Shown piece after piece: positions 1-17,013 of a stretch of 48,030 nucleotides of DNA. The stretch comes from a virus. The number at the start of each line of letters is the position of its first letter. The first letter of the stretch is position 1. Below the pieces are notes generated by a model, which worked only from the letters and a program-made list of their open reading frames with translations, was not told where the DNA came from and did not search any database. Made by a program: the position numbers and the translations under genes. The stretch is from IMG/VR virus record IMGVR_UViG_3300045051_001294, positions 1 to 48,030 of that record. One strand, given 5' to 3'.

Positions 1-3000
1 CGTCGGTTACGGTGAAGGTAATGCTGTGAGTGCCGGCTTGCGTGTAATCGGGCGTCCAGTTGAAGGTCCCGGTGGAAGCGTCAAGGCTGGCTCCGGCGGG
101 AAGGCCGGTCGCGCTGTAGGTCAGGCTGTCGCCGTCAGGGTCTGTCGCGGAGAGAGTGAAAGAGATACCTGCCTTTTCGGCGATGGTCTTGTCGCCGATT
201 GCTGCCATTACCGGGGCGCGGTTGACGTCGTTGACTGTTATTTCCACAGTCTCGCTGTCGGTGAGAGCGCCGTCGGTTACGGTGAAGGTAATGCTGTGAA
301 TGCCGGCTTGCGTGTAATCGGGCGTCCAGTTGAAGGTCCCGGTGGAAGCGTCAAGGCTGGCTCCGGCGGGAAGGCCGACGGCGCTGAAGTAAGTCAGGTT
401 GTCGCCGTCAGGGTCGGTTGCGGAAATGCCGAACGCCAGGGCTGAAGACTCATCGACGGCCTTGCTCCCTGTTACAGCCATTACCGGGGCGCGGTTGGTG
501 TTGGTTACGAGGATGTCGATAGCTTCGCTGTCGGTGAGGGTGCCGTCGGTGACTGTAAAAGTAACTCTGTAGCGGTCGGCTTGAGTGTAATCGGGCGTCC
601 AGCTGAAGGCCCCGGTGGAAGCGTCCAGGCTGGCTCCCGAGGGAAGGCCGATGGCGCTGTAGGTCAGGTTGTCGCCGTCATGGTCTGTCGCGGAAATGTC
701 GAAGGACAGGGCTGAAGACTCATTGACGGCCTTGTTTCCTGTTACTGCCATTACCGGGGCGCGGTTGACGTTCGCAACGTCGATGCTGATTGACTCGCTG
801 TCGGTGAGAGCGCCGTCGGTGACGGTGAAGGTCACGCTGTGAGTGCCGGCTTGCGTGTAATCCGGCGTCCAGCTGAAGGCCCCCGTGGAAGCGTCCAGGC
901 TGGCTCCCGATGGAAGGCCGACGGCGCTGTATGTCAATTCGTCGTTGTCGGGGTCGGTGGCGGAGAGTGAAAAATAAAGACTGGAATTCTCAGATACATT
1001 CTTGCCGCCGACGGTCTCAAGCACCGGCGCGAGGTCGACGTTGCTTACCGTGATATCCACTGTTTCGCTGCCGGCGAGGGCGCCGTCGGTGACGGTGAAT
1101 GTAACACTGTAGCTTCCCGACTGGGTGTAATCAGGTGTCCAGCCAAAAGCCCCTGTGGTTGCATCCAGAGTCGCTCCGGCGGGAAGGCCTGTAGCGCTGT
1201 AGGTCAGCCCGTCGCCGTCAGGATCTGAGGCCGAGAGCGTAAAGGAGATATGGGTGTTTTCGGGGGCGGTATTGTCTCCGACAGCATCCAGAACCGGAGC
1301 GCGGTTGACGTCGATGACGGTGATTTCCACTGTTTCGCTGTCGGTCAGGGCGCCGTCGGTGACGGTGAAGGTCACGCTGTGCATGCCGGCCTGCGTGTAA
1401 TCGGGAGTCCAGCTGAAAGCACCGGTAAGGGTATCAAAGACCGCTCCCGAGGGAAGCCCGACCGCGCTGTACGCCAGGACATCGCCGTCAATGTCGGTGG
1501 CCCGGAGGGTAAAGCCCAGCTCGGTGTTTTCATCCGTCGTCCAGGAGCCGATGGGGCCAAGAAATGGGCGATGGGACACGTCGATCATGAAAGAAAGCGA
1601 GGGGACCGCCGTGCTTGTGGCTACCCCGGTGCCGGCCTGGCCGTAAAGGTTGTTTCCCCAGGTCCATACGGTGCCGTCGTCCCTCAGCGCAAGTGAATGG
1701 GTCCCCCCGGCTACAGCCGCTTTTACGTCGGCAAGGCCCGGAACCGAAATGGAATTCAGTCTATCGATCACTGTCCCGTCGCCAAGCTGCCCATAAGAAT
1801 TGTCGCCCCAGGCCCACAATTTTCCATCTAGTCCAGCCGCAAGGGAATGGGCGCCGGAAGTAGCCGGAATTGCGTACGAAAGGCCGTTAACCTGAACCGG
1901 CACAAGCCTCTCCGTCTTTGTCCCGTCGCCAAGCTGCCCATCACCGTTCCAGCCCCAGGCCCACACCGTGCCGTCCGCACGCAGGGCCAGTGAGTGACTT
2001 GTTCCTGAGGAAATGGCGACCACACTGGTCAAGCCGACGACTTGCACGGGTCTTGAACGGTTTGATCTTGTCCCGTCGCCGAGAATGTTCCAGCCCCAGG
2101 CCCATACCGTGCCGTCTCCCCGAAGGGCAAGGGAACTCCTCGTCGATGCGGAAATCGCAATCACACCAGTCAAATCGACGACCTGCACAGGGATTAGCCT
2201 GTTTGTAACCGTTCCGTCTCCAAGAATGCCCATGGAGTTATAGCCCCAGGCCCATAAGGTGCCGTCGTCTCTTAAGGCAATAGAGTGCAAATCTCCTGTG
2301 GCGACGGCTTTAATGCCGGTCAATCCGGCAACCTGCACCGGCTCTGGTCTGTCTGTCGTTGTTCCGTCGCCCAGTTGCCCGTTGACGTTCCATCCCCAGG
2401 CCCACACGGTGCCGTCGCCGCGCAGGGCCAGGGAGTGGGAATACCTCGATGCAATAGCTGTTATCCCGGTCAATCCTGTAACCTGCACCGGGTCCCAGCT
2501 GTCTGCCGTTGTGCCGTCGCCCAGCTGACCTCTTGCGTTTCTACCCCAGGTCCACACAGTGCCTTCGCTGTCCAAGGCAAGGGAATGCTCCAACCCTGCG
2601 GCAACCGACGATACCTCTCCGATGCCTTTAACCTGCGTCTGCCCAAGCACGTAAGACACGGTGTCATCGCCCAGCTGTCCGTAGTAGTTGTTACCCCACC
2701 CAAATACTGTGCCGTCTTCTTTCACGGCAAGGGAGTAGAGCTCTCCCAGTGAAACCGCTGTAACTCCGGTGAGACCGGCGACTTGCACCGGCACCCATCT
2801 GTCTGTCGTCGTTCCATCGCCCAGCTGACCGATGCTGTTGCTACCCCACGTCCACACGGTGCCGTCGTTTTTGAGCGCCGCAGAGTGTGAGTATTTTGCG
2901 GAAACCGCGGCAACTCCGGTCAGGCCGACCACCTGAACCGGGTTATACCTTATAGTGTTTGTCCCGTCGCCCAGACTTCCGCTGCTGTTGCTGCCCCAGG

Positions 3001-6000
3001 CCCAGACTGTGCCGTCGCCTTTTACCGCCAGGGTATATGAATTGCCTGCTGAAACCGTGGTTACACCGGTCAAGTTTGTAAGCTGGGCAGGCGTTGACCT
3101 GTTTCCGATTCCAAAGCCGAGTTGACCTGAAGAGTTATTTCCCCAGGCCCACAACGTTCCGTCGCCCTTGAGGGCCAGAGAATGGTCCCCCCCAGCGAAT
3201 ACGGCCGTCACTCCCGTCAGGCCCGGCACCGGTACGGGAACGCTTCTGTTGTTCAATGTCCCGTCGCCAAGCTGTCCGAAAGTGTTTCCACCCCAGGCCC
3301 ATACCGTGCCGTCGTTGCGCAATGCCAGCGAGTGGTAGCCTCCGGCTGAGATAGCCGTCACTCCGGTAAGGGCTCTTACCTTGACCGGCGACCACCTGTC
3401 GGTCGTTGTGCCATCGCCAACGCGTCCATAGATGTTGCATCCCCACGCCCATACGGTGCCGTCGGCATGCAAGGCCACGGAGTGAAAACCCCCGGCGGAA
3501 ATGTCGGTTATTCCCGTCAGACCGGCGATTTGGACCGGCGACCACCGGTCCGTGGTTGTTCCGTCGCCCAGACGTCCATACTCGTTTGAACCCGAAACCC
3601 AGACAGTGCCGTCGGAGGCTAATGCCAGAGTGTGCCTGGGCCCCGCGGAAATCTTTGAAACCGGCAACAGAAGCTTTTTTATTACTTTTACGGTCTCGGT
3701 ATCTTTGAGGGGAGGAGTCCCGTTGTCGGTCACGGTAAAAGTGACGTCGTAAGCGCTTGCTTCCTCTGCCGTGGGAGTCCAGTTGAAGATCTTTGTCGAG
3801 GCATCGAAGGTCGCCCCCGGAGGAAGACCGACAGCATCGAATACAAGGCCGTCGCCGTCGGCATCTGAGGCTGACAGGGCGAAGGTCAAGGACTCACCAG
3901 GGTAGATTGTTTTATTGCCTACGGCTGAAAGAACCGGCGGGTTGTTGTAGCCCGTTACCGTTATCTCCACCGTTTCGCTGGTGGACAGGCTTCCGTCGCT
4001 GACGGTGAAGGTGACCGGGTGGGTTCCAGCCTGAGACAGGTCCGGCTTCCAGCTGAAATATCCGGAAAGCTCGTCGAAAACCGCCCCAGAGGGGAGTCCT
4101 GAAGCGCTGTAAGCCAGAAAATCGCCATCGGGGTCCGAAGCTCTCAATGAAAAGTCGAGAAGCTTGTTTTTATTGACCGTCTTTGGCCCTATCGCCCAAA
4201 ATGACGGCGCACGGTTCATATTTTGTACGTTGATGACAATTGTCTCGCTGTCGGACAGGGCGCCATCTGAAACTGTAAAGACAACGCTGTAATAGCCCTT
4301 CTGCGTATAGTCAGGCGTCCAGTTAAAAACCCCTGAGGAAACTTCGAGAGTCGCTCCGGCAGGCAGGCTTGCAGCGCTGTAGGTCAACGTATCGCCGTTC
4401 GGATCGGTCGCACATAGCGTGAAGGACAGCGGTTCGTTCTCTTTGACGGTCTTGCTTCCGATAGCCGCCAGCACCGGAGAGTCAGCGCTGATGACGGCTA
4501 TGCTTATCGTCTCGCTGTCGGTGAGTGCGCCGTCGGTTACGGTGAAGGTAATGCTGTGGGTGCCTATCTGCGAGGAACCGGGCGTCCAGTTGAAGATTTT
4601 TGTGGCTGCGTCGAAGCTCGCCCCAGTGGGAAGACCGGTCGCGCTGTAGACAACCGGGTCGCCGTCGGGGTCTGGTCCGGAGATCGTGAAAGACAAAGCC
4701 GTGTTTTCAACTACGCTCTTGCTTCCTATAGGAGCCAGCACAGGTGGCTGATTGACGTTGTTGACAACAATGCTTATCGTCTCCGTATCGATGAGGGCGC
4801 CGTCTGAGACAACAAAAGTTACACTGTAGCTGCCCGACTGCCAGTAATCGGGCTTCCAGAGGAAGGTTCCGGTAACAGGGTCGAGGTCCGCTCCGTCAGG
4901 CAGGGGTATAGAGTCGTAGGTCAGAAAGTCGCCGTCGATAGAGTCGGCTCTGAGGATGAAGGACAGAGTGGCGTTTTCGTTGACGCTCTTGTTGCCTATG
5001 GTGACAAAATAGGGCGGAACGTTAATGTTTGTAACGGTTATTGTGATGGTCTCGGAATCGCTGTTTGCAGGAGTCTGATCGTCAGTAACGGTAAAGGTCA
5101 CCTCGTAGCTTCCCGCCTGGGTAAAATCCGGTGACCAGACGAATTCCCCCATCGAGGGTTCGAACGTCGCACCGGCGGGGAGCCCGGCTGCGCTGTAGGT
5201 CAAATGCGAACCGGGAATAAAGTCATCTGTGGACAGCAGGAAGAAAAGATTTTCCTCTTCAGAGAGGTTTTGGTCGCCGATGGGGGAAAGCAACAGAGCG
5301 TGGATATTGTTGTTGACGACAATGGTGGTCGTCCCGGTGTCTGTCAGGACGCCGTCGGTTGCCGAGAAGGTCACGCTGTAGGTGCCCGACTGTAAGTAAT
5401 CGGGCGTCCAGTTGAAGGCCCCGGTGGAAGCGTCGAGGGTGGCACCGGCGGGAAGTCCGGTCGCGCTGTAAGACAGGATGTCGCCGTCCGGATCGCTTGC
5501 CAGGACGGCAAAGGAGAGGGCGGTGTTCTCGTCGACCTCCTTATTTTCTACTGCGGACAGCACAGGAGGGCGGTTTACGCCGCTTACCGTTATGTCTACG
5601 GTTTCGCTGTCCGAGAGGACGCCGTCGGTTACGCTAAAGATAACGCTGTAGGTGCCCGACTGTAAGTAATCGGGCGTCCAGTTGAAGGCCCCGGTGGAAG
5701 CGTCGAGGGTGGCACCGGCGGGAAGTCCGGTAGCGCTGTAGGTCAGGGTGTCGCCGTCCGGATCGCTTGCGGAGACAGTGAAAGAGAGGTTTGAATTTTC
5801 TGAGATAATCTGCAGCCCGATGGAGTCCAGGAGCGGTGCAAGATTACCGTCGATGATAAATGATTGAAACGGCGTAAGCCATTCGGCGTCGTTTCCCGTG
5901 CCCAGTTGTCCATATCCGTTACTGCCCCACACCAGCACGTTGGTGTCTTTCAGGGCCATGGAATGATATCCCCCGGCAGAAACCGTTGTCGCGCCGGTAA

Positions 6001-8020
6001 CGAAATCCACCTGAACGGGCGTAAGACTGCCCTGGGATGTGCCGTTACCCAGTTCCCCGTTCGTATTGCCCCCCCACGCCCATGCAGTACCGTCATTAAC
6101 AGTTGCCAGTGAATGTCCGTATCCCGCGGATACTGCGGTCGCTCCTGATAGGCCTGCGACCTGAACCGGTCTCAACCTGGATGTCGTCGTTCCGTCGCCA
6201 AGCAGGCCGTTGCCGTTGGTTCCCCACGCCCACACAGTGCCGTCATTCCGGAGGGCAAGGGAATGACTTATCGCTGTAGAAAGAGCGATTATAGAGGTCG
6301 TGTCGGCGGTCTGAACCGCATTAGGCCTGTTTGTCGTTGTTCCGTCTCCAAGCTGCCCGGAGTTGTTGCAGCCCCACCCCCAAACAGTGCCGTCGTTTCT
6401 TAGGGCCAGGGAGTAGTAGGCTCCGGCGGAAACCGCGGTTGCGCCCGTAAGGCCTGCTACCTGGACCGGGCTATAAGATGTCCATTCATTCCCGTCTCCA
6501 AGCTGCCCGTAAGAGTTCGAGCCCCATGCCCATGCCGTACCGTCGTCCCGCAGTGCAAGAGAGTGGATGTACCCGGCGGAGATTGCGGTTGCGCCGGTCA
6601 TGCCCGATACTTGCACCGGCGAGTATCTGTTTACTGCCGTGCCATCGCCGAGCTGGCCTGTTGCGTTGTAGCCCCAGGCCCAAACGGTGCCGTCGCTGCG
6701 GAGGGCGAGGGAATAATCATTTCCAGCCGAAACCGCGGTAACGTTTGCAAGCCCGCTCACCATTACCGGAGACAATTTTTCAACTGTTGTCCCGTCGCCC
6801 AACTGGCCATAAAGATTGTTGCCCCAAGACCAAACGGTGCCGTCGCTGCTAAGGGCAAGAGAGTGCCTGGCTCCTGCAGAAACTTTTGAATAACCCGTTT
6901 GTCCGGCAATTTGAACGGGGGACCATTCGTTGAACATCGTCCCGTTGCCAAGTTGGCCGTAAGCAATGTCTCCCCAGGCCCAAAAAGAGCCGTCGCTGCG
7001 AAGGGCAACGGAGAAACCATAACCATCGGAAACAAGGGTGACGTCCGTCAGGCCGTTTACCTGCGCCATTCCACTGCTATTCCACTTCCATGCAGTGCCG
7101 TCGCCCAGAATGGCCAGGGATTGGTAAAACCCGGCAGAAACGGCGGTGACACCCGCCAAGGCTGCTATCTGAACCGGAGACGGCTTATCAACCGTTGTTC
7201 CGTCACTCAACTGACGGAAGGCATTGTCGCCCCACGCCCAAACTGTGCCGTCGTTTCGGATGGCGAGTGAAGAAAATGCACCCGCAGAAATCGCAGTTGC
7301 ACCAGTAAGACCGGTGACCTGAACCGGCGCAAACTTGTTTGTAGTAGTCCCGTTGCCAATCTCACCGGAGCTGTTGTAGCCCCAAGCCCATACTGTGCCG
7401 TCGTTACGGAGGGCCATTGAGTGGCGGTATCCGGCGTCAATGGCGATTACGCCCGTCAAGGCGGCGACTCTGACAGGAGTAAATTTTGCTGTAGCCGTCC
7501 CGTCGCCCAGTTGGCCGGTAGCGTTATAGCCCCATGCCCATACGGTTCCGTCGCTTTTGAGTGCCAGGGAGTGATGCTGACCGGCGGAAACTGCGACGGC
7601 ATCCGACAGTCCGACAACCATCACGGGGGTTGTCCTGGTGGTTTGCGTCCCGTCCCCGAGTTGTCCCCAATTGCCATACCCCCACGCCCACACAGTGCCG
7701 TCGTTTCTCAGGGCAAGAGAAAAGTTCGACCCGGCAGAGACCGCGTTTACACCGCTCAAACCGTTTACCTGCACTGGAACCGGCCGTATTGTCGTTGTTC
7801 CGTCGCCTAATTGCCCGTACTGGTTATTCCCCGAGGCCCAGACGAAACCATCGGAATCCACCGCCAGGGTATGATAAGCAAATCCGGCGGATATTTTGGT
7901 GAATCTGAGTGTTGAAGCTGTTGAAATCGCGAAACTTCCCGATAGAAGAAGCAACACCGCCGACAGTGCACATAATCTGATCATGTTTATTATTGCCCTG
8001 CGGGTTTCCGGAAGTCTCAT
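1..8020 (-). CDS. Giant secreted RCC1 / Ig-like repeat protein (partial, 3' end outside window)
   Basis: The frame stays open from an ATG at 8020 to the window edge, over 2,670 codons, with no stop. An AGGAG box (8027-8031) lies 6 nt before the start. The N-terminus has basic residues and a hydrophobic core (CALSAVLLLLSGSFA), a Sec signal peptide. Domain order: 14 RCC1-type repeats (about 7905-5860, typical core DGTVWAWG...GQLGDGT), 8 Ig-like He_PIG/cadherin-type repeats (about 5845-3690, typical core GLPAGATLDASTGAFNWTPD), a second set of 14 RCC1 repeats (about 3660-1600), then at least 6 more Ig-like repeats. RCC1 repeats fold into seven-bladed propellers, so each block of 14 could form two propellers. 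The acidic DPDGD motif recurs in the Ig-like units, as in calcium-binding adhesins. An exported surface or matrix protein is inferred; the ligand is unknown. A riboswitch lies in the leader. Confidence 0.9.
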   Translation of the reverse strand, partial: MRLPETRRAIINMIRLCALSAVLLLLSGSFAISTASTLRFTKISAGFAYHTLAVDSDGFVWASGNNQYGQLGDGTTTIRPVPVQVNGLSGVNAVSAGSNFSLALRNDGTVWAWGYGNWGQLGDGTQTTRTTPVMVVGLSDAVAVSAGQHHSLALKSDGTVWAWGYNATGQLGDGTATAKFTPVRVAALTGVIAIDAGYRHSMALRNDGTVWAWGYNSSGEIGNGTTTNKFAPVQVTGLTGATAISAGAFSSLAIRNDGTVWAWGDNAFRQLSDGTTVDKPSPVQIAALAGVTAVSAGFYQSLAILGDGTAWKWNSSGMAQVNGLTDVTLVSDGYGFSVALRSDGSFWAWGDIAYGQLGNGTMFNEWSPVQIAGQTGYSKVSAGARHSLALSSDGTVWSWGNNLYGQLGDGTTVEKLSPVMVSGLANVTAVSAGNDYSLALRSDGTVWAWGYNATGQLGDGTAVNRYSPVQVSGMTGATAISAGYIHSLALRDDGTAWAWGSNSYGQLGDGNEWTSYSPVQVAGLTGATAVSAGAYYSLALRNDGTVWGWGCNNSGQLGDGTTTNRPNAVQTADTTSIIALSTAISHSLALRNDGTVWAWGTNGNGLLGDGTTTSRLRPVQVAGLSGATAVSAGYGHSLATVNDGTAWAWGGNTNGELGNGTSQGSLTPVQVDFVTGATTVSAGGYHSMALKDTNVLVWGSNGYGQLGTGNDAEWLTPFQSFIIDGNLAPLLDSIGLQIISENSNLSFTVSASDPDGDTLTYSATGLPAGATLDASTGAFNWTPDYLQSGTYSVIFSVTDGVLSDSETVDITVSGVNRPPVLSAVENKEVDENTALSFAVLASDPDGDILSYSATGLPAGATLDASTGAFNWTPDYLQSGTYSVTFSATDGVLTDTGTTTIVVNNNIHALLLSPIGDQNLSEEENLFFLLSTDDFIPGSHLTYSAAGLPAGATFEPSMGEFVWSPDFTQAGSYEVTFTVTDDQTPANSDSETITITVTNINVPPYFVTIGNKSVNENATLSFILRADSIDGDFLTYDSIPLPDGADLDPVTGTFLWKPDYWQSGSYSVTFVVSDGALIDTETISIVVNNVNQPPVLAPIGSKSVVENTALSFTISGPDPDGDPVVYSATGLPTGASFDAATKIFNWTPGSSQIGTHSITFTVTDGALTDSETISIAVISADSPVLAAIGSKTVKENEPLSFTLCATDPNGDTLTYSAASLPAGATLEVSSGVFNWTPDYTQKGYYSVVFTVSDGALSDSETIVINVQNMNRAPSFWAIGPKTVNKNKLLDFSLRASDPDGDFLAYSASGLPSGAVFDELSGYFSWKPDLSQAGTHPVTFTVSDGSLSTSETVEITVTGYNNPPVLSAVGNKTIYPGESLTFALSASDADGDGLVFDAVGLPPGATFDASTKIFNWTPTAEEASAYDVTFTVTDNGTPPLKDTETVKVIKKLLLPVSKISAGPRHTLALASDGTVWVSGSNEYGRLGDGTTTDRWSPVQIAGLTGITDISAGGFHSVALHADGTVWAWGCNIYGRVGDGTTTDRWSPVKVRALTGVTAISAGGYHSLALRNDGTVWAWGGNTFGQLGDGTLNNRSVPVPVPGLTGVTAVFAGGDHSLALKGDGTLWAWGNNSSGQLGFGIGNRSTPAQLTNLTGVTTVSAGNSYTLAVKGDGTVWAWGSNSSGSLGDGTNTIRYNPVQVVGLTGVAAVSAKYSHSAALKNDGTVWTWGSNSIGQLGDGTTTDRWVPVQVAGLTGVTAVSLGELYSLAVKEDGTVFGWGNNYYGQLGDDTVSYVLGQTQVKGIGEVSSVAAGLEHSLALDSEGTVWTWGRNARGQLGDGTTADSWDPVQVTGLTGITAIASRYSHSLALRGDGTVWAWGWNVNGQLGDGTTTDRPEPVQVAGLTGIKAVATGDLHSIALRDDGTLWAWGYNSMGILGDGTVTNRLIPVQVVDLTGVIAISASTRSSLALRGDGTVWAWGWNILGDGTRSNRSRPVQVVGLTSVVAISSGTSHSLALRADGTVWAWGWNGDGQLGDGTKTERLVPVQVNGLSYAIPATSGAHSLAAGLDGKLWAWGDNSYGQLGDGTVIDRLNSISVPGLADVKAAVAGGTHSLALRDDGTVWTWGNNLYGQAGTGVATSTAVPSLSFMIDVSHRPFLGPIGSWTTDENTELGFTLRATDIDGDVLAYSAVGLPSGAVFDTLTGAFSWTPDYTQAGMHSVTFTVTDGALTDSETVEITVIDVNRAPVLDAVGDNTAPENTHISFTLSASDPDGDGLTYSATGLPAGATLDATTGAFGWTPDYTQSGSYSVTFTVTDGALAGSETVDITVSNVDLAPVLETVGGKNVSENSSLYFSLSATDPDNDELTYSAVGLPSGASLDASTGAFSWTPDYTQAGTHSVTFTVTDGALTDSESISIDVANVNRAPVMAVTGNKAVNESSALSFDISATDHDGDNLTYSAIGLPSGASLDASTGAFSWTPDYTQADRYRVTFTVTDGTLTDSEAIDILVTNTNRAPVMAVTGSKAVDESSALAFGISATDPDGDNLTYFSAVGLPAGASLDASTGTFNWTPDYTQAGIHSITFTVTDGALTDSETVEITVNDVNRAPVMAAIGDKTIAEKAGISFTLSATDPDGDSLTYSATGLPAGASLDASTGTFNWTPDYTQAGTHSITFTVTD

Positions 8021-8086: not shown

Positions 8087-8119
8087 AAAGCGCCATTTCC
8101 AAAGGGGAAAAGGCGCTTT
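8087..8119 (-). terminator. Intrinsic terminator in the leader of the giant gene
   Basis: Read on the minus strand, AAAGCGCC pairs with GGCGCTTT, with a further TTTCC/GGAAA pairing inside. The stem is followed directly by a T-rich run (TTTTTTGTTTTTTC). It lies downstream of the riboswitch aptamer and about 67 nt upstream of the giant gene's ATG, so it is placed to act as the expression platform rather than as the end of another gene. Confidence 0.8.
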
Positions 8120-8129
8120 ACGCACTGCA

Positions 8130-8216
8130 GCACCCTCTTCGTCAACCCGGCCATCCACTTGCTGGACCCGTGGCTTTGCGCCGCCGGATTTCTCCGGCTT
8201 TGCCCTTATCGGAGGG
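8130..8216 (-). ncRNA. Cyclic-di-GMP-I (GEMM-I) type riboswitch aptamer
   Basis: The minus strand carries the GEMM-I hallmarks in order: GGGCAAAG, a GCCGG...CCGGC hairpin with a GAAA-like loop, the conserved CGCAAAGCCACGGGTCC segment, a second hairpin, and GGCCGGGTTG. The outer P1 helix is closed by CCCTC (8211-8216) and GAGGG (8133-8137). GEMM-I RNAs bind cyclic di-GMP; a Geobacter subclass (GEMM-Ib) binds 3',3'-cGAMP. The GGGCAAA run, which holds the base that separates the two classes, looks like the c-di-GMP form, but this assignment is from memory of the alignment. It sits just upstream of an intrinsic terminator and the giant surface-protein gene, which suggests transcriptional control of that gene. 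Confidence 0.8.
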
Positions 8217-8458: not shown

Positions 8459-8636
8459 TGTACGGGGGTACTGAGTATAGGACCGGCGGTAAATAAGGAA
8501 GAGTATGAAAAATGAGTCAAAAATGCGTTGAAATAACGGGAAAAAATGAAAATTTTAAGAGGGTGAAAAGAGAGTTTAAAAAAATGGGACCAAAAGTCGA
8601 AAAAAACAAAATTTGCACCGAAAATGAGACCGCCCG
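8459..8636. other. Phage left end (attL region)
   Basis: The sequence runs from the TG terminus to the end of the first phage gene. It is A-rich on the plus strand and holds several GAGAC/GAGTC words (for example 8515-8519 and 8625-8630) that could be transposase sites. I do not see a close copy of the 18-bp repeat found at the right end. A 62-codon ORF that starts here overlaps the phage gene on the other strand and is not judged real. Confidence 0.55.
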
Positions 8637-9170
8637 TCAGGGGTTGAAAATAGACCCTTTTGGGAAAGAACTCCCACTTTCATTTTTAAAGCGCTCGTAA
8701 AGGGAAGAAAACTTCGGAGAGGTATAAGTAACGTTAGTTTCTTCCGCTCCAGACATTTTTAGGACTGTCACCGAAAGGGTGTTTTTATCAAATCCCCAAG
8801 TAATAGAAATACCTTTTTTGTCGAAATCTCTCAATTCAGCTTCCGTAGGAATGCGTGAAGGTTTTCCAAATTTTTTTTCGGCTGAATGGAGTACTTCGTC
8901 GCTACTAATCCACGAAGGTACATTTATAATAAGTTGGTGAAATTTATTATTGAAAAAAATAATTCTCGCGCTTGTGGATTGATCTCCCCACTTAAAACGA
9001 GGGCACGTCAAAGCGTCTAAACCAATAAAACTGTCCTGATAGCACTGCCCCGCAGTGTCCTCCATAATTGTCGTCTTATCTGCTCCCCAATTCCACTCAT
9101 TGTATCCATCAACAGCAAGAGCCGATCCCGCGAAAACGAGAATAATCGCAACCGCCAGCATTCTCTTCAT
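8637..9170 (-). CDS. Small secreted protein, candidate lysogenic-conversion gene
   Basis: 177 aa with a clear Sec signal peptide (MKRMLAVAIILVFAGSALA, cleavage predicted after residue 19). The mature part has two cysteines close together (within QCYQDSFIGLDALTCPRF) that could form a disulfide. I recognise no family. It begins 15 nt after the repressor stop, on the same strand, with a GGGGGA purine stretch ahead of the ATG, so it is probably transcribed with the repressor and expressed in the lysogen. Its place between repressor and attL is where transposable phages can carry cargo genes. An exported product made during lysogeny suggests alteration of the host envelope or superinfection exclusion; this is inference only. 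Confidence 0.8.
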   Translation of the reverse strand: MKRMLAVAIILVFAGSALAVDGYNEWNWGADKTTIMEDTAGQCYQDSFIGLDALTCPRFKWGDQSTSARIIFFNNKFHQLIINVPSWISSDEVLHSAEKKFGKPSRIPTEAELRDFDKKGISITWGFDKNTLSVTVLKMSGAEETNVTYTSPKFSSLYERFKNESGSSFPKGSIFNP

Positions 9171-9185
9171 CTTGTTACCATCCCC

Positions 9186-9923
9186 CTACAAATTCTTCCC
9201 TGCCCACACCGCGCGCCCTAGAACGCGAAGCCTTTCGGTATCAGGGGCGCTGATAATCTCCGTCTCATACGCCGGATTATCACTCTTAATAATAATAGAG
9301 CCGTCAATTCTGGGTTGCAAACGCTTAACGCGAACGTCGCCAGCAACTTCTATAACGTAAATAGCGTCGGCAGAAGGTTTAACATTCCTTAAATCCAGCA
9401 TTATATCGTCGCCGTCCAGCAATGTAGGCATCATAGAATCGCCCACAACGCGAACAACCGCTAATTTTTCCGGGTCCAACCCTCGAAACTTTATCCATCT
9501 ACGGCTGAAAGCCAGCCTGTCCAGGACAAGTTCCCCTTCTACCGACGATCCCGGCCCAGCCGAAACATCCACTCCATAGCGCGGCACCTGCACATAATCG
9601 GGATCAGGGGGGCAGGCTCGCATAGAGCCGGAATCTTCTAAGGGCACCACTTTCGACAGCGGCGTCCCCATTCTGCTCCCCATCTCGAACCCTTTTGTTA
9701 TGGTGGGCTCGCGAATAAAAACTGGCTCCTCGCCTGCTAAAATCCAGTTAGCGTTGAAACCGGCCTTCGTGACGAGAACTTCAATGACCTGACTGCCGGG
9801 AGTAGATTTCCCTGACTCATATACCTGCCACGAGCGATAGCCGACGCCCAAAAAATTGGCCATCGACTGCTGATCCATGCCCATTAAATTGCGTGCTTTT
9901 TTCAGCCTTTCCGCGAGACTCAT
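9186..9923 (-). CDS. c: Phage repressor, XRE-type HTH plus S24 autoprotease domain
   Basis: 245 aa. Residues about 5-60 form an XRE-type helix-turn-helix (RLKKARNLMGMDQQSMANFL). The C-terminal half is a LexA/CI-like S24 peptidase domain with nucleophile Ser163 in GDSMMPT and Lys200 in VRVKRL. The 37-residue spacing equals that of LexA. A likely self-cleavage Ala122-Gly123 pair lies in VSAGPGSS. This design implies induction by RecA-stimulated self-cleavage, unlike the classical Mu c repressor, which lacks the S24 domain. The start at 9923 has an AAAGGGA box. It is divergent from ner across a 263-bp control region with repeated GTGTGGCA boxes. Confidence 0.93.
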   Translation of the reverse strand: MSLAERLKKARNLMGMDQQSMANFLGVGYRSWQVYESGKSTPGSQVIEVLVTKAGFNANWILAGEEPVFIREPTITKGFEMGSRMGTPLSKVVPLEDSGSMRACPPDPDYVQVPRYGVDVSAGPGSSVEGELVLDRLAFSRRWIKFRGLDPEKLAVVRVVGDSMMPTLLDGDDIMLDLRNVKPSADAIYVIEVAGDVRVKRLQPRIDGSIIIKSDNPAYETEIISAPDTERLRVLGRAVWAGKNL

Positions 9924-9937
9924 CCATTCCCTTTAGC

Positions 9938-10070
9938 TACCACACTTTCAAAGTCTAAGTGTGGCAAAAGTGTGGCGGGCTCAAGTCGCTGCCACACTTT
10001 CTGTAAGCAGCCGTAAATACAAGCAAAACAACTAAAAACACAAAAAAGTGAGAAAAAATTTAGTGTGGCA
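9938..10070. promoter_or_regulatory. Cluster of five GTGTGGCA operator-like boxes
   Basis: The box AAGTGTGGCA or a near match occurs at 9938-9948 (minus), 9957-9966 (plus), 9967-9977 (plus), 9990-10000 (minus) and 10061-10070 (plus). Two copies lie head to tail and two face the others. Four sit in the leader of the leftward repressor gene and one just upstream of the rightward -35 box. They are the best candidates for repressor or Ner binding sites; which protein binds is not shown by the sequence. Confidence 0.7.
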
Positions 10071-10083
10071 ACTATCTTAATGG

Positions 10084-10112
10084 TTGACATCCACAATATG
10101 GCGCGCAATAAT
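10084..10112 (+). promoter_or_regulatory. Early promoter Pe
   Basis: A perfect TTGACA (10084-10089) is followed by a 17-bp spacer and AATAAT (10107-10112). A GTGTGGCA box lies 13 bp upstream of the -35. It faces ner and the transposition genes. Downstream, CCCCGG (10157-10162) can pair with CCGGGG (10171-10176), overlapping the ner ribosome site. Confidence 0.75.
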
Positions 10113-10186
10113 CGGCGTGTCTATCTTACACGTCAACTGTAGAAGGCCCTTAAAAACCCCGGCGGTAAGACCGGGGAAGGATACAG

Positions 10187-10486
10187 ATGAGCGCCGCTAA
10201 AAAGCTGACAAACAGAAAAATGGACGTCCACCCTGCAGACGTCGTCGCCGCTCTAAAAAAATGTGGGTCCAGCCTTGCGGCGCTAGCCAAAGAACACGGC
10301 TACGCACGGCGCTCTTTTTCCTCGGTTTGGGTAAAAGCGTGGCCGCAGGTGCAGGATATTCTCGCCGCCAAGCTCGGAACCACTCCTCAAGAGCTTTGGC
10401 CTACCCGCTACAACCGCGACGGCTCCCCTAAACCGAAATGTATTGTCGTCAGGATAGCCGACCTTGACAGGGGTCGCAATGCCTAA
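10187..10486 (+). CDS. ner: Ner-like DNA-binding regulator
   Basis: 99 aa. A basic winged or helix-turn-helix domain of the Ner/Nlp (SfsB) family covers about residues 12-80: MDVHPADVVAALKKCGSSL followed by LAKEHGY and the conserved ending PQELWPTRY. In Mu, Ner is the first early gene and represses both the early and the repressor promoters. Here it is likewise the first gene after Pe and divergent from the repressor. The GGGGAAGG ribosome site is partly buried in a predicted 6-bp hairpin, which may moderate translation. The last residues overlap the next gene by 8 bp. Confidence 0.9.
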   Translation: MSAAKKLTNRKMDVHPADVVAALKKCGSSLAALAKEHGYARRSFSSVWVKAWPQVQDILAAKLGTTPQELWPTRYNRDGSPKPKCIVVRIADLDRGRNA

Positions 10487-10943
10487 GCGCAAGGAAAAAA
10501 TAGAATCCCGGCAAGGGTCTTTGCTCGATCTCCTCATGAGCCTCCAGTCCACGCCCGAACCCCGGACGGAAGGCAGCCTCGACGTCGCCGAAAAGCTTCG
10601 CCTATCCATTATAGACGCAATAAAGCAGAGCCCTCTTTCCCGCTGGGAGATCGCCGGAAAGATGGGCGAGCTCCTCGGGCGCGATGTCTCGAAATTCCAG
10701 CTAGACGCGTGGACGGCTGAATCCAAAGAAGCCTATCGCTTCCCCGCTGAATACCTCCCCGCCTTCTGCTCCGCCACCGGCTCTCAAGAGCCCCTTCGGC
10801 TGCTCGCCCAGGCTGCCGGGATGTTCGCCCTGCCGGGGCCGGACGCCCTGCGCGCCGAAATCCAGCGATTGGAGGAGGAAGAGCGCCGGATCAAGGGCGA
10901 AAAACACAAGCGCAAGCTCTTTTTAAAGGAAATGGAGAGCTGA
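10479..10943 (+). CDS. Conserved Mu-like phage protein of unknown function
   Basis: 154 aa from an ATG at 10479 with AGGGG five bases upstream; a TTG at 10464 is a poorer choice. The middle (about residues 38-110: IIDAIKQSPLSRWEIAGKM, then LDAWTAESKEAYRFP) looks like a helical DNA-binding fold. The C-terminus is a charged coiled coil (LRAEIQRLEEEERRIKGEK). It lies between ner and the transposase, a place where Mu itself has no gene. Similar proteins occur in Mu-like phages as far as I recall; no function is known to me. It is part of the early operon. Confidence 0.8.
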   Translation: MPKRKEKIESRQGSLLDLLMSLQSTPEPRTEGSLDVAEKLRLSIIDAIKQSPLSRWEIAGKMGELLGRDVSKFQLDAWTAESKEAYRFPAEYLPAFCSATGSQEPLRLLAQAAGMFALPGPDALRAEIQRLEEEERRIKGEKHKRKLFLKEMES

Positions 10944-10945
10944 AA

Positions 10946-11092
10946 ATGGAAAAAACCGGCTGCCAGAAATGCGCCGAAGAGCGCGATAAAGAGCAAGCGG
11001 CCTCCTTCATAGAGGGCGTCGCCGTCGGCGCGGTAGTCGGCACTGTTATTTTCGCCGGTTTCTTCTTCTGGTGGTCCGGGGGGCTCGGCTGA
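10946..11092 (+). CDS. Small single-pass membrane protein with CxxC
   Basis: 48 aa from an ATG at 10946, two bases after the previous stop, to TGA at 11090-11092. The N-terminus carries CQKC; residues about 21-43 form one transmembrane helix (FIEGVAVGAVVGTVIFAGFF, then FWW). It is in frame for translational coupling with its neighbours and ends two bases before the transposase ATG. Early expression of a small membrane protein could serve host modification or exclusion; there is no direct evidence. Confidence 0.65.
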   Translation: MEKTGCQKCAEERDKEQAASFIEGVAVGAVVGTVIFAGFFFWWSGGLG

Positions 11093-11094
11093 CC

Positions 11095-13290
11095 ATGCAC
11101 AAAGAATGGTTTTCGGCTGCGGAATTGGTAGGGCTGCCCGGCTTGTCATCTCACAAAAAGAACATCATAGCACTGGCGCTATCTCAAAACTGGCTTTCAC
11201 GCCCCGTCACCTGCCGTGGCGGCCGCCGCAACGAGTACCATATCTCCAGCCTCCCCGAGCCCGCGCGGATCGCGCTGGCGGTGACGAAAAAACCCGTCTG
11301 CGACGCCTCCACCGCCGGGGCCGAGGCCGGGCGCAAAATCCGCGAAGTCGCCGCGAAAAAAGCCGAAGAAAACCGCGCGAAACGCGAGCGCGGCCTCGCC
11401 GAATACAATCAGCTATCTCCCGCGAGAAGGGCCGAGGCCGATGCCGTCGCCGCCCTCCTCAAAGAGCGCGACGCCTTTATAGCCGCCTCCGGCCTCCCCA
11501 AGCGGCGCGGCACGATCCTTTTCTGCGAGCTGCTCCAGAAGGGCTCCATCGACCTTGCGGCGGAGATCATCGCGCCCCTTACCCGCAACGGAAAAATAGC
11601 CGTCTCGCGGTCAACGGTAGACAGGTGGTCGTCGGCCTACGAAAACGGCGGACTCGGCGCACTCGCCCGCAGCTACGGCGCGGCGCGAGGCCCCCGCACG
11701 ATAACCTGCGAGCAGCAAAAATTCATCGTCGCCATGATGGTCGAACACCCCCACGCGAAGATCGAGCACATCCACGACGGCCTCGCGGCGCGCTTCGGCG
11801 AGGCCCCCGATTACCACGCCGTCCGCCGCTACGTCGTCAAGTGGAAGGCAGACCACGCCGCCCTCTACCTCTACATCACCAACCCCGACGCGTGGAAATC
11901 AAAATACATGTATGCCGTCGGCAAGGCCGACGAATACATCACCCGGCTAAACCAGCGCTGGGAGATGGACTCAAGCCCGGCCGACATACTCCTTTCCGAC
12001 GGCCTGCGCTACAACCTGCTCGGCCTCATCGACGTCTACTCGCGCCGGTTAAAAATCCTCGTCAAACCCTCTTCCAGCGCCGCCGGAATAGCCGCGCTGA
12101 TACGCCGTGGGCTCCTCGACTGGGGCGTGCCGGAAAAAATACACAAGGACAACGGCAAGGACTACACCGCCGCCCACATCACCAGGGTAGAAGACGAGCT
12201 GAAGATAGAGCCCGTGCTCTGCAAACCCTTCAGCCCCGAAGAAAAACCCCACATCGAAAGGGCCTTTAAAACCTTCGCGCATGGACTCTTGGAGCTTATG
12301 CCCGGCTACATCGGCCACAACGTAGCCCAGAGAAAAGACATCGAGGCCCGGCGCTCCTTCGCCGAGCGGCTGACCAGAAAAGACAAAGATAAGGTCGAAA
12401 CCATCGAAATGCGGATGAGCCCCGAAAAGCTCCAGCTCTTCTGCGACAACTGGTGCCGCGCCATCTACGAGCAGGATGCGCACGAGGGGCTGGAGGGCCG
12501 CACGCCGGCCGAGGTCGCCCGTGAATGGCCCGAACCCGTGCGCACGATTGCCGACGAAAGAGCGCTCGACGCCCTCCTGGTTCCGGCGGCGGAGAATGGC
12601 GGCTTCCGCGTGATAAGGAAGAAGGGAGTAGAGGTCGGAGGCCCCTTTTACGCCGCGCTGGAATTTGCCGGGCACGAGGGAGAGAGAGTGCTCGTCAAGC
12701 CCGACCCCACGGACATGGGCCGGGTCTACGTCTACCTCGCCACCGGCGAGTTTCTCGCCGTCGCCGTCGATCCCAGCGCCCCCGAGATCGACCGCTCCGA
12801 GTTCTCCTCGCGCCTTCGCGCAAAGCAAAAACAGATACTCGCCGAAGCCTCCAAAGCCCTCAAAAAATCCGCGAAAGAACAGGCCGTCGGCTCCATCGGC
12901 GAAGAGATCATGGACGCCGCGCTGGCCCGGCTGGAAAACGTCGTCGAGCTGCCGCGCGCCACGGCCCCGTACTCCACCGAGGCGCTCCGTCAGGCCGCGC
13001 GGGCGGTAGAGGCGAGAGACAACTGCGACAGGGGGGAAAGCCCGGATTTTGTGCTCAGGGGGTCGGATTTCACCTCGCTGCAAGACGAGCCCGAAACCGC
13101 CGAAACAGCCGAGATAGTCCCGCTCTTCAGTAGCGCCGTCGAGGTCTACGACTACTTCTCTCGGCTCAGGAAGCAGCGCTCATTGACGCCCGGCGAACTC
13201 GCCCAGGTCAAGGCGGCCTACGAAGAATCGAGACAGGTCAGGATGCTTGCGGAGATGGAAGGCGACAAGGAGTGGGTCGCCGCCAGCTGA
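11095..13290 (+). CDS. A: Mu A-like DDE transposase
   Basis: 731 aa from the ATG at 11095; a GTG at 11071 would overlap the previous gene. Residues 1-70 match the Mu-type N-terminal DNA-binding domain (EWFSAAELVGLPGLSSHKK). A second HTH-like region lies around 100-240. The integrase core has Asp292 in RWEMDSSP, Asp352 in HKDNGKDY and Glu388 in EKPHIERAFKTF, a complete DDE triad. A Mu-transpos C-terminal beta domain follows (about 440-580), then a charged, helical tail that likely contacts B. The D-E spacing is 35 residues, against 55 in Mu A. It catalyses strand transfer at the phage ends. Confidence 0.97.
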   Translation: MHKEWFSAAELVGLPGLSSHKKNIIALALSQNWLSRPVTCRGGRRNEYHISSLPEPARIALAVTKKPVCDASTAGAEAGRKIREVAAKKAEENRAKRERGLAEYNQLSPARRAEADAVAALLKERDAFIAASGLPKRRGTILFCELLQKGSIDLAAEIIAPLTRNGKIAVSRSTVDRWSSAYENGGLGALARSYGAARGPRTITCEQQKFIVAMMVEHPHAKIEHIHDGLAARFGEAPDYHAVRRYVVKWKADHAALYLYITNPDAWKSKYMYAVGKADEYITRLNQRWEMDSSPADILLSDGLRYNLLGLIDVYSRRLKILVKPSSSAAGIAALIRRGLLDWGVPEKIHKDNGKDYTAAHITRVEDELKIEPVLCKPFSPEEKPHIERAFKTFAHGLLELMPGYIGHNVAQRKDIEARRSFAERLTRKDKDKVETIEMRMSPEKLQLFCDNWCRAIYEQDAHEGLEGRTPAEVAREWPEPVRTIADERALDALLVPAAENGGFRVIRKKGVEVGGPFYAALEFAGHEGERVLVKPDPTDMGRVYVYLATGEFLAVAVDPSAPEIDRSEFSSRLRAKQKQILAEASKALKKSAKEQAVGSIGEEIMDAALARLENVVELPRATAPYSTEALRQAARAVEARDNCDRGESPDFVLRGSDFTSLQDEPETAETAEIVPLFSSAVEVYDYFSRLRKQRSLTPGELAQVKAAYEESRQVRMLAEMEGDKEWVAAS

Positions 13291-13300
13291 AAAAACGAAA

Positions 13301-13322
13301 GGCCCGGATGGCAGTCCGGGCC
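13301..13322 (+). other. Hairpin between transposase and B gene
   Basis: GGCCCGGA (13301-13308) and TCCGGGCC (13315-13322) form a perfect 8-bp stem with a 6-base loop. No T tract follows, so it is not a standard terminator. It fills the 80-bp gap between A and B and may stabilise the mRNA or set the A to B ratio. Confidence 0.5.
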
Positions 13323-13370
13323 CCAACTACGCCCCGAAATGGGGCCACATGGCAAAGAGGAAAATAACAG

Positions 13371-14090
13371 ATGCGGAAGAGATTCGCAACAACCAGAAAC
13401 GTAAAAGCGTTCATGACGGGAATGGAAGCCCTCGAAAACGCCCCTTCGGGAGACGCCAAAATGGGGCTGGTCTACGGGGCCTTCGGCACGGGAAAGACAG
13501 AGACCGTAAAGAAATACGCCCGCGACAGGGCCTTCCCCTACGTCCGCTGCCAGAAGGTAGACACCCCGCGCGTACTGCTTGAACGCATCGTCGCCGAATA
13601 CCGCGTCGTACCTCGCAAGCGCACCGCCGAGCTGCGCGACCAGGCCGTGGACATCATGCTCGACACCGAAAAGTGGCTCATCATCGACGAGGTCGATTAC
13701 CTGCTCGAATCCGGCGACGGCGCGAAAATGGTCGAGATACTGCGCGACCTCCACGACATAACCGACGTGCCCGTAATCCTCGTCGGCATGGACCAGACCC
13801 TCCAGAAAATGAAGAGCCGCAACCTCAACCACCTCGTCGACCGCTGCCGCAGCGTCGTTCGGTTCGACACCTTCGACGCCGCCGCCGTCGCCGACCTCGC
13901 CAAAGAGATATGCGAAATAGAAATAACCCCCGAGGCCATCGAAAAGATAACCCGCGACGCGCGCGGTCGAATCCGGCCGATAAGAATGTGGTTCGAAGCC
14001 GCCGAGCGCTTCGGCCGCCGCAACAACCTCGCCGCCATCGAGCTGGAGCACCTCTCAAAACTTCGCGTCCGGATCGACGAGGGCAACTGA
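13371..14090 (+). CDS. B: Mu B-like transposition ATPase
   Basis: 239 aa AAA-type ATPase. Walker A is GAFGTGKT (residues 36-43) and Walker B is WLIIDE (Asp106-Glu107). A conserved arginine-rich region (HLVDRCRSVVRF) follows, as in Mu B and related target-selection ATPases. It is shorter than Mu B (312 aa) and lacks the N-terminal HTH of Mu B, starting almost directly with the ATPase. B binds target DNA, delivers it to the transposome and gives target immunity. An ATG at 13349 is out of frame. The stop overlaps the next ATG (TGATG). Confidence 0.95.
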   Translation: MRKRFATTRNVKAFMTGMEALENAPSGDAKMGLVYGAFGTGKTETVKKYARDRAFPYVRCQKVDTPRVLLERIVAEYRVVPRKRTAELRDQAVDIMLDTEKWLIIDEVDYLLESGDGAKMVEILRDLHDITDVPVILVGMDQTLQKMKSRNLNHLVDRCRSVVRFDTFDAAAVADLAKEICEIEITPEAIEKITRDARGRIRPIRMWFEAAERFGRRNNLAAIELEHLSKLRVRIDEGN

Positions 14091-14635
14091 TGGCCCCCGT
14101 GATGGACCCCGTCATCGCGTGGATCAGCGCGCGCGAAGGCAAGCCCTTCACCCTCTCGATGCTGTGCGAAGAGGCGGGCCTGCCCCGCAGACCCTCTCTG
14201 CGGGTCTGCGACAAGCTCGCCAAAGAAGGCTACCTCACCGAGCTGGCCGACGACCCCGTAGCGCCCCGCCTTGGCGAGCACGGCCCCGCGCGCCAGAACC
14301 CCACGTGGAAAGAAAGCAAGCAAAAACCCGCCGCGAAGCGCCCAAAGCCCCGCCCCGCGCGCCTCACAAAGCGCGACCGCATGTGGGCCTACATCACCGA
14401 CGCCATCTTCTTCACCGTCGGCGATCTCCAGATAGCCCTCGACGACGGCAAAGAGCAAAAGCGCGAAGCAGTGGAGGACTTCATCTACATGCTCAAGGGC
14501 GCCGGTTACGTGCGCGAGCACGGCAGACGCGGGGCAGAAAAGCTCTGGAAGCTCTGCAAAGGGCGCGGACAGCCACGTCCGGCGTTGCCCGACCCCAGCG
14601 CCGGACGCAAAGCGGCGAAAAGGAGCCGCCCATGA
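14090..14635 (+). CDS. Winged-helix-like early phage protein
   Basis: 181 aa from an ATG that overlaps the B stop. Two helical segments separated by a basic linker look like tandem winged helices: residues about 6-52 (ISAREGKPFTLSMLCEEAGL, DKLAKEGYLTEL) and about 100-155 (MWAYITDAIFFTVGDLQIAL, FIYMLKGAGYVREHG). The linker (about 65-95) is rich in Lys, Arg and Pro. A DNA-binding role is likely; no named family is recognised. It is coupled to the next gene by an ATGA overlap. Confidence 0.75.
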   Translation: MAPVMDPVIAWISAREGKPFTLSMLCEEAGLPRRPSLRVCDKLAKEGYLTELADDPVAPRLGEHGPARQNPTWKESKQKPAAKRPKPRPARLTKRDRMWAYITDAIFFTVGDLQIALDDGKEQKREAVEDFIYMLKGAGYVREHGRRGAEKLWKLCKGRGQPRPALPDPSAGRKAAKRSRP

Positions 14636-14949
14636 TCTGGATGGAGATACTCCGCCGACAGGTAGAGCAAAAAGGGCAGTCTGTAGTCGCCCGCGAGCTG
14701 GGCTACACGCCCTCCACCATCAGCCAGATACTCGCGAGTAAATACGGGGCCGAAACCAGCCGAGTGGAAGAAAGAATCATGGCGGTTTACGGCCACAAAG
14801 GGCTTGTCGATTGCCCTATTCTCGGCGAAACCGCCCCCTCCCTGTGCGCCGAAAATCATGACCTGGCCCGCAAAATCGGCCTTCGCACGGGCAACCCCGA
14901 CACCGCGCGGCTCTACAAACGCTGCCAAAACTGCGAGGTGCGAAAATGA
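14632..14949 (+). CDS. Small HTH protein with C-terminal cysteines
   Basis: 105 aa from an ATG at 14632 overlapping the previous stop (an in-frame ATG at 14641 is possible). Residues about 8-35 form a helix-turn-helix (QSVVARELGYTPSTISQIL). The C-terminal part has conserved-looking cysteines (DCPILG, SLCAE, RCQNCEV) that could bind zinc. Small HTH proteins of this kind are common in the early operons of Mu-like phages; the role is unknown. It overlaps the next gene by 4 bp. Confidence 0.75.
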   Translation: MIWMEILRRQVEQKGQSVVARELGYTPSTISQILASKYGAETSRVEERIMAVYGHKGLVDCPILGETAPSLCAENHDLARKIGLRTGNPDTARLYKRCQNCEVRK

Positions 14950-15146
14950 CAACCGCCTACGAATCCCCCAAATCCGACGCCGGTTTCGACGCCCTTGCCG
15001 ACGCCTATCTTGAGCGCGGCCTCAGCCGGTTTTGCACGTTCAGCCAGTACGCCCACAACCCCGAGCGTTACAACCTCATGGCCGACCAGGCCGACAGGTT
15101 CGAGCGCACCGCGAGCCCGAACTTCTACTGCGAGGCGGCGTCATGA
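14946..15146 (+). CDS. Hypothetical small protein
   Basis: 66 aa, unrecognised. It overlaps both neighbours by 4 bp (ATGA). The sequence is soluble and aromatic-rich near the C-terminus (RFCTFSQYAHNPERYNLMAD). The overlaps and the high-GC codon use shared with its neighbours support that it is translated. Confidence 0.65.
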   Translation: MTTAYESPKSDAGFDALADAYLERGLSRFCTFSQYAHNPERYNLMADQADRFERTASPNFYCEAAS

Positions 15147-15451
15147 GCGCCGTGCAGCTCGGGATGCTCGGAGTCCCCGACGAGCCCGCGTACACGGCTA
15201 TGCGCCGCGAGCAGTTCGGAGCCTGGGGCGGAGGCTACGCCGCCGAGCCCGGCACCGGCCCGGAAGGCCTCAAGTGCGCCGACTGCTTCAACTACCTGCA
15301 AAACTGGAGCGACAGCCCCAACCACGACTGGCGCGACGACAGGTGCGGCCTGGTCTACCTCGAAGAGCGTAACCGCAAAATCCTCGCCCCGCTGATAGAC
15401 GCCGAATCCCCCGCCTGCGCGAAGTTCGGCGAACTCCCGGAGTGCTGCTGA
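15143..15451 (+). CDS. Hypothetical cysteine-containing protein
   Basis: 102 aa from ATG 15143. It contains CADCFNY in the middle and ends CAKFGELPECC, with aromatic and acidic residues between (DWRDDRCGLVYLEE); the spaced cysteines suggest a metal site. No family is recognised. It sits in the chain of ATGA/TGATG overlaps of the early operon. Confidence 0.65.
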   Translation: MSAVQLGMLGVPDEPAYTAMRREQFGAWGGGYAAEPGTGPEGLKCADCFNYLQNWSDSPNHDWRDDRCGLVYLEERNRKILAPLIDAESPACAKFGELPECC

Positions 15452-15945
15452 TGGAACCCGCCCGCGACATCTACGAAACGAGCTACGGCCTTTACTCGCC
15501 GCTAAGCGACTACCGTCCCGGCATGGGGCTAATCCACTACGGCGGGCTCCCCGTGCCCGGCATGGACGACTGGTCGACCACGAGGCCGCAGCGCACCTAC
15601 AACCAGTGCCCGCGCCTATTAAACGGCCTTTTCCCCGGCGACGCCGCCGAAAAGCCCGCTCCGGTGAAGAGCGCGGCTCCGAGGGTACCCCGGCTCCCCA
15701 AGCCTCCGAAGCCGCCGAAACCGCCGAACTACCGCTACCTCACCGACGAAGAGATCGCCGATATCCTCGCCGCCATAAAGGCCGAGGATATAACGGTCAA
15801 AGAGTGGGGCATCCGTTTTGGTTGGGGCAGTTCGGTTTACATCAAGTTCTCCCCGCGCCGCCGTGAGATCGCAGGCGGGAAGGTACACCTCGAACAGATA
15901 ACAAAGCTCAAAAAACTGCTGAACATAAAGGAGAAAGAAGCATGA
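15451..15945 (+). CDS. Hypothetical protein with proline-rich linker
   Basis: 164 aa from ATG 15451, overlapping the previous stop; a GTG at 15442 is less likely. The N-terminal 65 residues are aromatic-rich. Residues about 75-93 are a Lys-Pro-rich linker (PRLPKPPKPPKPPNYRYL). The C-terminal 70 residues look like a small HTH domain (LTDEEIADILAAIKAEDITV, KEWGIRFGWGS). Possibly DNA-binding; function unknown. It overlaps gam by 4 bp. Confidence 0.7.
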   Translation: MEPARDIYETSYGLYSPLSDYRPGMGLIHYGGLPVPGMDDWSTTRPQRTYNQCPRLLNGLFPGDAAEKPAPVKSAAPRVPRLPKPPKPPKPPNYRYLTDEEIADILAAIKAEDITVKEWGIRFGWGSSVYIKFSPRRREIAGGKVHLEQITKLKKLLNIKEKEA

Positions 15946-16457
15946 CCAGAATAAAGCCCAAATCACTGGTGATAGGCACCATAGACGAGGCCGACGCCGC
16001 CCTGCTCGAATTGGCCGGAATCAACCGCGACGTAGCGCTCATCGAGGCCAACATGAACGAGCGCATCGAAGAGGCCAGAAGCGAAGCCGCGTGCTCCACC
16101 AAGCCCTTCCGCGACAGGGCCGACGAGCTGGCCAAGGCCCTCGAAGCCTTCGCCGTCATCCGCCGCGCCGAGCTTTTCGAGGGCGACAAAAAGAGCCGCG
16201 AGCTTGTTCACGGCACCATCGGCTTTCGCCTCTCCACCTCGCTCAAGCTGGCCGCCAAGCAGACGATGGCCGGAGTGCTCGAACGCCTCAAAGACCTCGG
16301 CCTGCGCGAGGGCATCCGCCAGAAAGAGGAGGTCAACAAAGACGTACTGCGCGACTGGCCCGAAGAAAAGCTCGCCCTGGTCGGCATGAAACGCGACCAG
16401 AAAGACCTCTTCTTCTGCGAGCCCAAGGCGGAAGAACTCCCGAAGGAGGCGGCGTGA
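15942..16457 (+). CDS. gam: Host-nuclease inhibitor Gam
   Basis: 171 aa, the usual size for Mu Gam (174 aa). The N-terminal half is a long helical coiled coil (LLELAGINRDVALIEANMNE, then LAKALEAFAVIRRAELFEG), followed by the conserved HGTIGFRLSTSLK segment and a C-terminal region with LREGIRQKEEVNKDVL. Gam dimers bind linear double-stranded DNA ends, protect them from RecBCD-type nucleases and resemble Ku. A GGAGAAAG ribosome site precedes the ATG. Confidence 0.95.
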   Translation: MTRIKPKSLVIGTIDEADAALLELAGINRDVALIEANMNERIEEARSEAACSTKPFRDRADELAKALEAFAVIRRAELFEGDKKSRELVHGTIGFRLSTSLKLAAKQTMAGVLERLKDLGLREGIRQKEEVNKDVLRDWPEEKLALVGMKRDQKDLFFCEPKAEELPKEAA

Positions 16458-16837: not shown

Positions 16838-17013
16838 TGGGGCCCAACGTAGAAGTCGGCGACAAGGTCAACTACTGCGGCGTCACCGCCCTGGTCGTAA
16901 AGGTTCACACCACGCGCACGGGAAGGAAACTGGCCTACATGGAAGGCCGCAAAACCCCGGTGGATACCTATGACCTCAGGATCATAGCCAAGAAGGAGGC
17001 CCCTCATGGCTAA
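16837..17013 (+). CDS. Small KOW/SH3-like protein 1
   Basis: 58 aa from ATG 16837 (TGATG overlap) to TAA 17011-17013. The pattern VEVGDKVNYCGVTALVVKVH looks like a small beta-barrel of the KOW/SH3 type. The next gene encodes a protein with the same opening pattern, so the two may be paralogues. Role unknown. Confidence 0.55.
   Translation: MGPNVEVGDKVNYCGVTALVVKVHTTRTGRKLAYMEGRKTPVDTYDLRIIAKKEAPHG

Follow-up and report, generated by a model that had tools for sequence, protein, structure and literature searches.

Rfam groups the c-di-GMP-I aptamer (RF01051), exemplified by Vc2 and Cd1, in clan CL00126 together with two variants, c-di-GMP-I-GGC (RF03167) and c-di-GMP-I-UAU (RF03168). The ligand-pocket positions are numbered here after Vc2 (PMC4744006), in which G20, A47 and C92 are named as ligand contacts (PMC4744006; PMC3764141). 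C92 is the ligand-pairing base in both c-di-GMP and cGAMP riboswitches (PMC4744006; PMC9262584). Its equivalents, C87 of Cd1 and C75 of pilM, are the Watson-Crick residues for the ligand, and neither RNA binds any longer once this base is sequestered (PMC9262584). By the Rfam consensus lines, the GGC variant has the signature G20, G47 and C92 and the UAU variant U20, A47 and U92, while the cGAMP (GEMM-Ib) class is defined by A20. A G20A/C92U double mutant is quoted with a c-di-GMP binding value of 4900 nM against 0.011 nM for the wild type (PMC9049102); a literature search found no published C92A measurement. GEMM RNAs ahead of large extracellular proteins are not unusual, and a collagen adhesion protein in Bacillus thuringiensis is controlled by a c-di-GMP riboswitch (PMC4933901).

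The window analysed here, the whole 48,030-nucleotide DNA of IMG/VR virus record IMGVR_UViG_3300045051_001294, carries on its minus strand an RNA that covariance-model searches place in this clan (Table 1). The first-pass annotation had proposed a c-di-GMP-I type aptamer with a closing P1 helix and had suggested a search with the Rfam GEMM-I model as a check. That model, RF01051, recognises the RNA with 64.7 bits against a gathering cut-off of 35 (E 3.9e-14), the Rfam match covering 8213-8137, and P1 closes by pairing of CCCUC.CG with CG.AA.GAGGG. The first-ranked clan member varies with the search settings: RF03167 leads with standard filters (59.6 bits, gathering 59, E 1.1e-11), and RF03168 with looser ones (64.4 bits, below its gathering cut-off of 65.9). 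To avoid reliance on these family labels, a separate covariance model, R1, was trained on 18 other GEMM RNAs with the window left out; it scores the window RNA at 75.2 bits (E about 2e-23), within the range of ordinary members. Covariation across the matches is strong, with 95.7% of cells pairing and 232 cells changed in both partners, a level that no shuffle out of 500 reaches, in an alignment that was fitted to the structure and whose counts lean towards it. The basal P2 pair of the window RNA is flipped to G-C, a compensated change, where nearly all other matches have C-G, U-A or A-U. As far as sequence can show, both the membership of the aptamer in the GEMM-I clan and the presence of a terminator switch are secure.

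Table 1. Coordinates of the riboswitch, the gene it precedes and the neighbouring prophage in the window
Feature	Position	Strand	Basis or remark
Regulated gene: signal-like N-terminus, RCC1 and He_PIG repeats, runs off the contig	2..8020	-	ORF, Pfam
Intrinsic terminator hairpin, then U-rich tract	8087..8119	-	-17.7 kcal/mol
Antiterminator 3' arm AGCGCCUUUU	8108..8117	-	also within the terminator 5' arm
Antiterminator 5' arm AGAGGGUGCU	8129..8138	-	10 bp with 8117-8108
GEMM-I / c-di-GMP-I clan aptamer including P1	8133..8216	-	RF01051, RF03167, own model R1
P1 3' strand CGAAGAGGG	8133..8141	-	overlaps the antiterminator 5' arm
C92 equivalent: A	8142	-	covariance-model alignments and census
P3 hairpin, short form	8144..8175	-	covariance-model alignments
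A47 equivalent: A (the GGC variant has G47)	8177	-	covariance-model alignment
P2 hairpin GCCGGA-GAAA-UCCGGC, GNRA loop	8183..8198	-	covariance-model alignments
G20 equivalent: G (c-di-GMP-I has G, the cGAMP class A)	8204	-	covariance-model alignment
P1 5' strand CCCUCCG	8210..8216	-	seven pairs with 8141-8133, interrupted by an AA bulge
Mu-like prophage, not part of the riboswitch	8459..47749	.	PHROG matches, end search
CI-type repressor	9186-9923	-	
MuB-like transposition protein	13371-14090	+	
Gam-like protein	15942-16457	+	

The window RNA shares with Vc2 and Cd1 the three-helix fold, G20, A47, A48, the interhelical bases C44 and G83 (model columns 35 C and 64 G) and a GNRA loop on P2, here GAAA. 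Unlike them, it has A in place of C92, so that two of the three canonical contact bases are kept and the third is changed; the RF03167, RF03168 and R1 alignments place this A consistently. In the initial set of 122 distinct GEMM RNAs besides that of the window, position 92 is always C. A further 23 positions reach at least 93% conservation in this set, and the window RNA carries the consensus base at every one of them. When the census, made with R1, was extended by Pseudomonadota and more Omnitrophota to 217 matches from three phyla and viral contigs, C was found in 215 of them. One of the two exceptions, L276 (26 bits), proved to be a false match, and the other, L265, is an unusual RNA whose junction is altered further, among other things by an inverted P2 base pair. 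The L265 sequence, from a genome of the Janthinobacterium phylum, holds two GEMM-like RNAs (101-186 and 1329-1414) with an inverted P2 pair (C21-G46) and an altered junction, one with U at position 92 and the other with A20 and C92, both below the GGC and UAU cut-offs. Two Omnitrophota-phylum GEMM-I RNAs (L160, 1490-1572; L161, 1509-1599) have C at position 20 together with a normal A47 and C92.

These bases bear on which ligand is to be expected. The first-pass annotation had taken the GGGCAAA element to indicate c-di-GMP and not cGAMP. The element is present and contains G20, which speaks against the A20 class, but it covers one of three contacts; because the C92 equivalent is A, it is not assured that c-di-GMP is the working ligand. 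A cGAMP riboswitch as in Geobacter is nonetheless very improbable. The J1/2 and P1 sequences do resemble those of L008, an A20 RNA of GEMM-Ib type, but position 20, the base that defines the class, is G. Unlike pilM, GSU1761 and L008, moreover, the window RNA has A92 and not C92, which all seven A20 RNAs of the census retain, and its switch is predicted to be OFF, whereas a Geobacter cGAMP reporter riboswitch is ON (PMC6456294). The L008 aptamer (8005-8091 of a viral contig; A20, C92) is followed by a terminator and a small secreted-looking protein, and its locus is perhaps host DNA beside a prophage.

The window RNA is likewise set apart from the two named variants. It narrowly passes the RF03167 cut-off, but has A47 and A92 where the GGC variant has G47 and C92; the label is not diagnostic, as the canonical G20/A47/C92 RNAs L006 and L007 also receive it, L150 being a true GGC RNA. 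RF03168 ranks it best under looser filters, but its G20 and A92 differ from the U20 and U92 of the UAU variant. With G, A and A at the three contacts, the window RNA is, as judged from its bases, neither a plain c-di-GMP-I riboswitch nor a GEMM-Ib, GGC or UAU RNA.

Downstream of P1 lies the intrinsic terminator that the first-pass annotation had reported, arranged as AAAGCGCC-U-UUUCC-loop-GGAAA-U-GGCGCUUU and followed by a U-rich stretch, with an energy 6.5 SD below that of mononucleotide shuffles. The limits set at first reading, 8087 and 8216, coincide exactly with the 3' end of this hairpin and the 5' end of P1. An antiterminator draws on the 3' strand of P1 as well as on the 5' arm of the terminator; P1 can form together with the terminator. 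In foldings of growing transcripts the antiterminator belongs to the best fold at most end points between about 8108 and 8093, and over these ends, until the terminator is complete, the best fold is 3.5-4.9 kcal/mol better than one with P1 forced; the predicted advantage is thermodynamic and small. Mononucleotide-shuffled arms pair equally well with the terminator arm in 1.3% of cases for a 13-nt 5' arm and in 4.6% for a 26-nt arm, a control that lends the modelled antiterminator modest support. The layout found in silico is that of a Cd1-type OFF switch, in which the P1 3' strand is common to an antiterminator that excludes the intrinsic terminator. Because the P1 3' strand is shared with an antiterminator that consumes the terminator 5' arm, ligand is predicted to turn the gene OFF; Cd1 is an OFF switch with the same terminator logic (PMC9262584). 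A scan for consensus promoters upstream of the aptamer gave nothing convincing.

On balance, we favour the view that this RNA belongs to the leader of a host gene encoding a giant secreted RCC1/Ig protein and acts there as a GEMM-I clan OFF switch, with weakened ligand binding and expression that is ON by default. Going by this one sequence, the switch is most likely cis-acting and transcriptional. The aptamer would fold while RNA polymerase passes. With a cyclic dinucleotide bound, P1 would stay closed and its GAGGG strand would be unavailable, allowing the terminator to form and the gene to be shut off; without ligand, AGAGGGUGCU would pair with AGCGCCUUUU, the terminator would be blocked and the gene would be read. 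With A in place of C92, the RNA should bind c-di-GMP far less strongly than a standard aptamer does, and the switch should be biased toward ON. A random single change would rarely hit position 92, which speaks somewhat for a meaningful change, be it a loss or a shift of binding. The intact remainder of the aptamer argues against weakened binding, as the RNA could still bind something well. In our ranking, weakened c-di-GMP binding with default-ON expression comes first, a tolerated substitution second, a new specificity third and a base error fourth.

The tolerated substitution would make the RNA an ordinary c-di-GMP OFF switch, in which, for example, the neighbouring C93 slips over and takes on the pairing, or the ligand is held by an A.G pair with A92. 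This appears unlikely, even though G20 and A47 are canonical and the energetics leave some room for such a slip. In the nearest-neighbour model, forcing P1 costs only about 0.3 kcal/mol, the upper pairs of this helix, which hold C93, being close to neutral, so that C93 is nearly free. The adjacent P1 pair is often dispensable as well, G14 being missing in 36 of the 217 matches, and for Cd1 a less stable alternative binding conformation has been reported just before the ligand-pairing C (PMC9262584). However, genuine relatives never vary at C92 but do vary at the adjacent pair, which suggests that the slip is rarely used in nature.

A shift of specificity would agree with the manner in which the known classes differ: the cGAMP class, GGC and UAU depart from one another at positions 20, 47 or 92, and the window RNA changes one of these three and no other conserved position. 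By Watson-Crick logic, G20 and A92 would call for a ligand with G at the alpha and U at the beta position, as in 3',3'-cGMP-UMP, or for some other dinucleotide not yet known; minor synthesis of cUGMP by CD-NTases has been reported (PMC7288161). We regard such a variant as doubtful, and it is at least as doubtful that a natural G20/A47/A92 pocket senses a dinucleotide besides c-di-GMP and cGAMP, possibly one that presents a pyrimidine opposite A92, such as 3',3'-cGMP-UMP. Against a specificity variant, no second A92 RNA was found by an A92 pattern scan of 84,980 GTDB species genomes, a scan whose pattern catches no more than 18 of 123 sampled GEMM RNAs (about 15%), so that its result is only partly informative. 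Pattern scans of viral contigs likewise gave no second example, and patterns made for close relatives found none in viral contigs and none in 392 genomes of one phylum. A relaxed A92 pattern returned only chance matches and C92 RNAs from 193 genomes. Of the four GTDB matches to the A92 pattern, three were C92 RNAs to which the pattern fitted in the wrong register, and the fourth was no GEMM RNA; two viral matches were not aptamers. The A92 RNA is known here from one sequence without a close relative.

With a single unverified contig and a departure of a single base, an error of metagenome assembly also has to be weighed, in which case the true base at 8142 would be C and the RNA a standard c-di-GMP-I riboswitch. 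We hold this to be improbable, as the error would have to strike this one base of about 80, and the sequence bears no other sign of poor quality, the long reading frame downstream being unbroken.

The base at position 92 determines what a GEMM-I aptamer pairs with in its ligand, and natural RNAs almost never vary there. An RNA found in nature with A92, the rest of its aptamer being perfect and its terminator switch intact, lends itself readily to testing: either a single base has released a giant secreted protein from control by a second messenger, or the scaffold is able to form a third kind of base pair with a ligand. Given the change from C to A at the ligand-pairing base, the window RNA should not yet pass as an ordinary c-di-GMP sensor, and it illustrates that neither a family score nor a short motif suffices to assign a ligand.

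The gene behind the switch starts with an ATG at 8020, preceded by AGGAGA at 8031-8026, and its frame is open for at least 2,673 codons to the contig edge, in agreement with the earlier prediction of an ATG beyond the terminator and a protein of more than 2,670 residues. Pfam identifies about 25 RCC1 repeats and 14 He_PIG Ig-like stretches, and the N-terminus is signal-like as judged by eye. Of its first description as a giant surface repeat protein, the size stands; the surface location does not follow from the RCC1/Ig repeats and the signal-like N-terminus, the C-terminus lying beyond the contig. Among relatives of the RCC1 protein in viral contigs, no GEMM leader scored above the cut-off. 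A 4.6-kb viral contig (L051) has two canonical GEMM-I aptamers (1689-1772 and 3595-3678), each before one of two paralogous repeat proteins, one of which is confirmed as Laminin_G_3/Ig.

From about 8.6 kb onward the genes of the 48-kb virus record are Mu-like and include a CI-type repressor, a MuB-like transposition protein and Gam. The riboswitch leader and the giant gene accordingly appear to be bacterial DNA adjoining a Mu-like prophage. Candidate prophage ends at 8459 and 47749 combine TG...CA with a CTCCT direct repeat, a weak signature, since chance alone should yield a few pairs of this kind. The phage regulator region had no DNA match in annotated phages, and comparison of the leader DNA with plasmids gave nothing useful. 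The repressor operon of the prophage (8637-9923) is transcribed toward the riboswitch and in the same direction, and read-through from it could feed the leader. A thymidylate synthase gene (phrog_85, 17182-17853) lies among the early genes of the prophage, and at the right end of the prophage TTGTCTCAAACCTCGCGC occurs as tandem 18-nt repeats (47701 and 47723) that resemble transposase sites.
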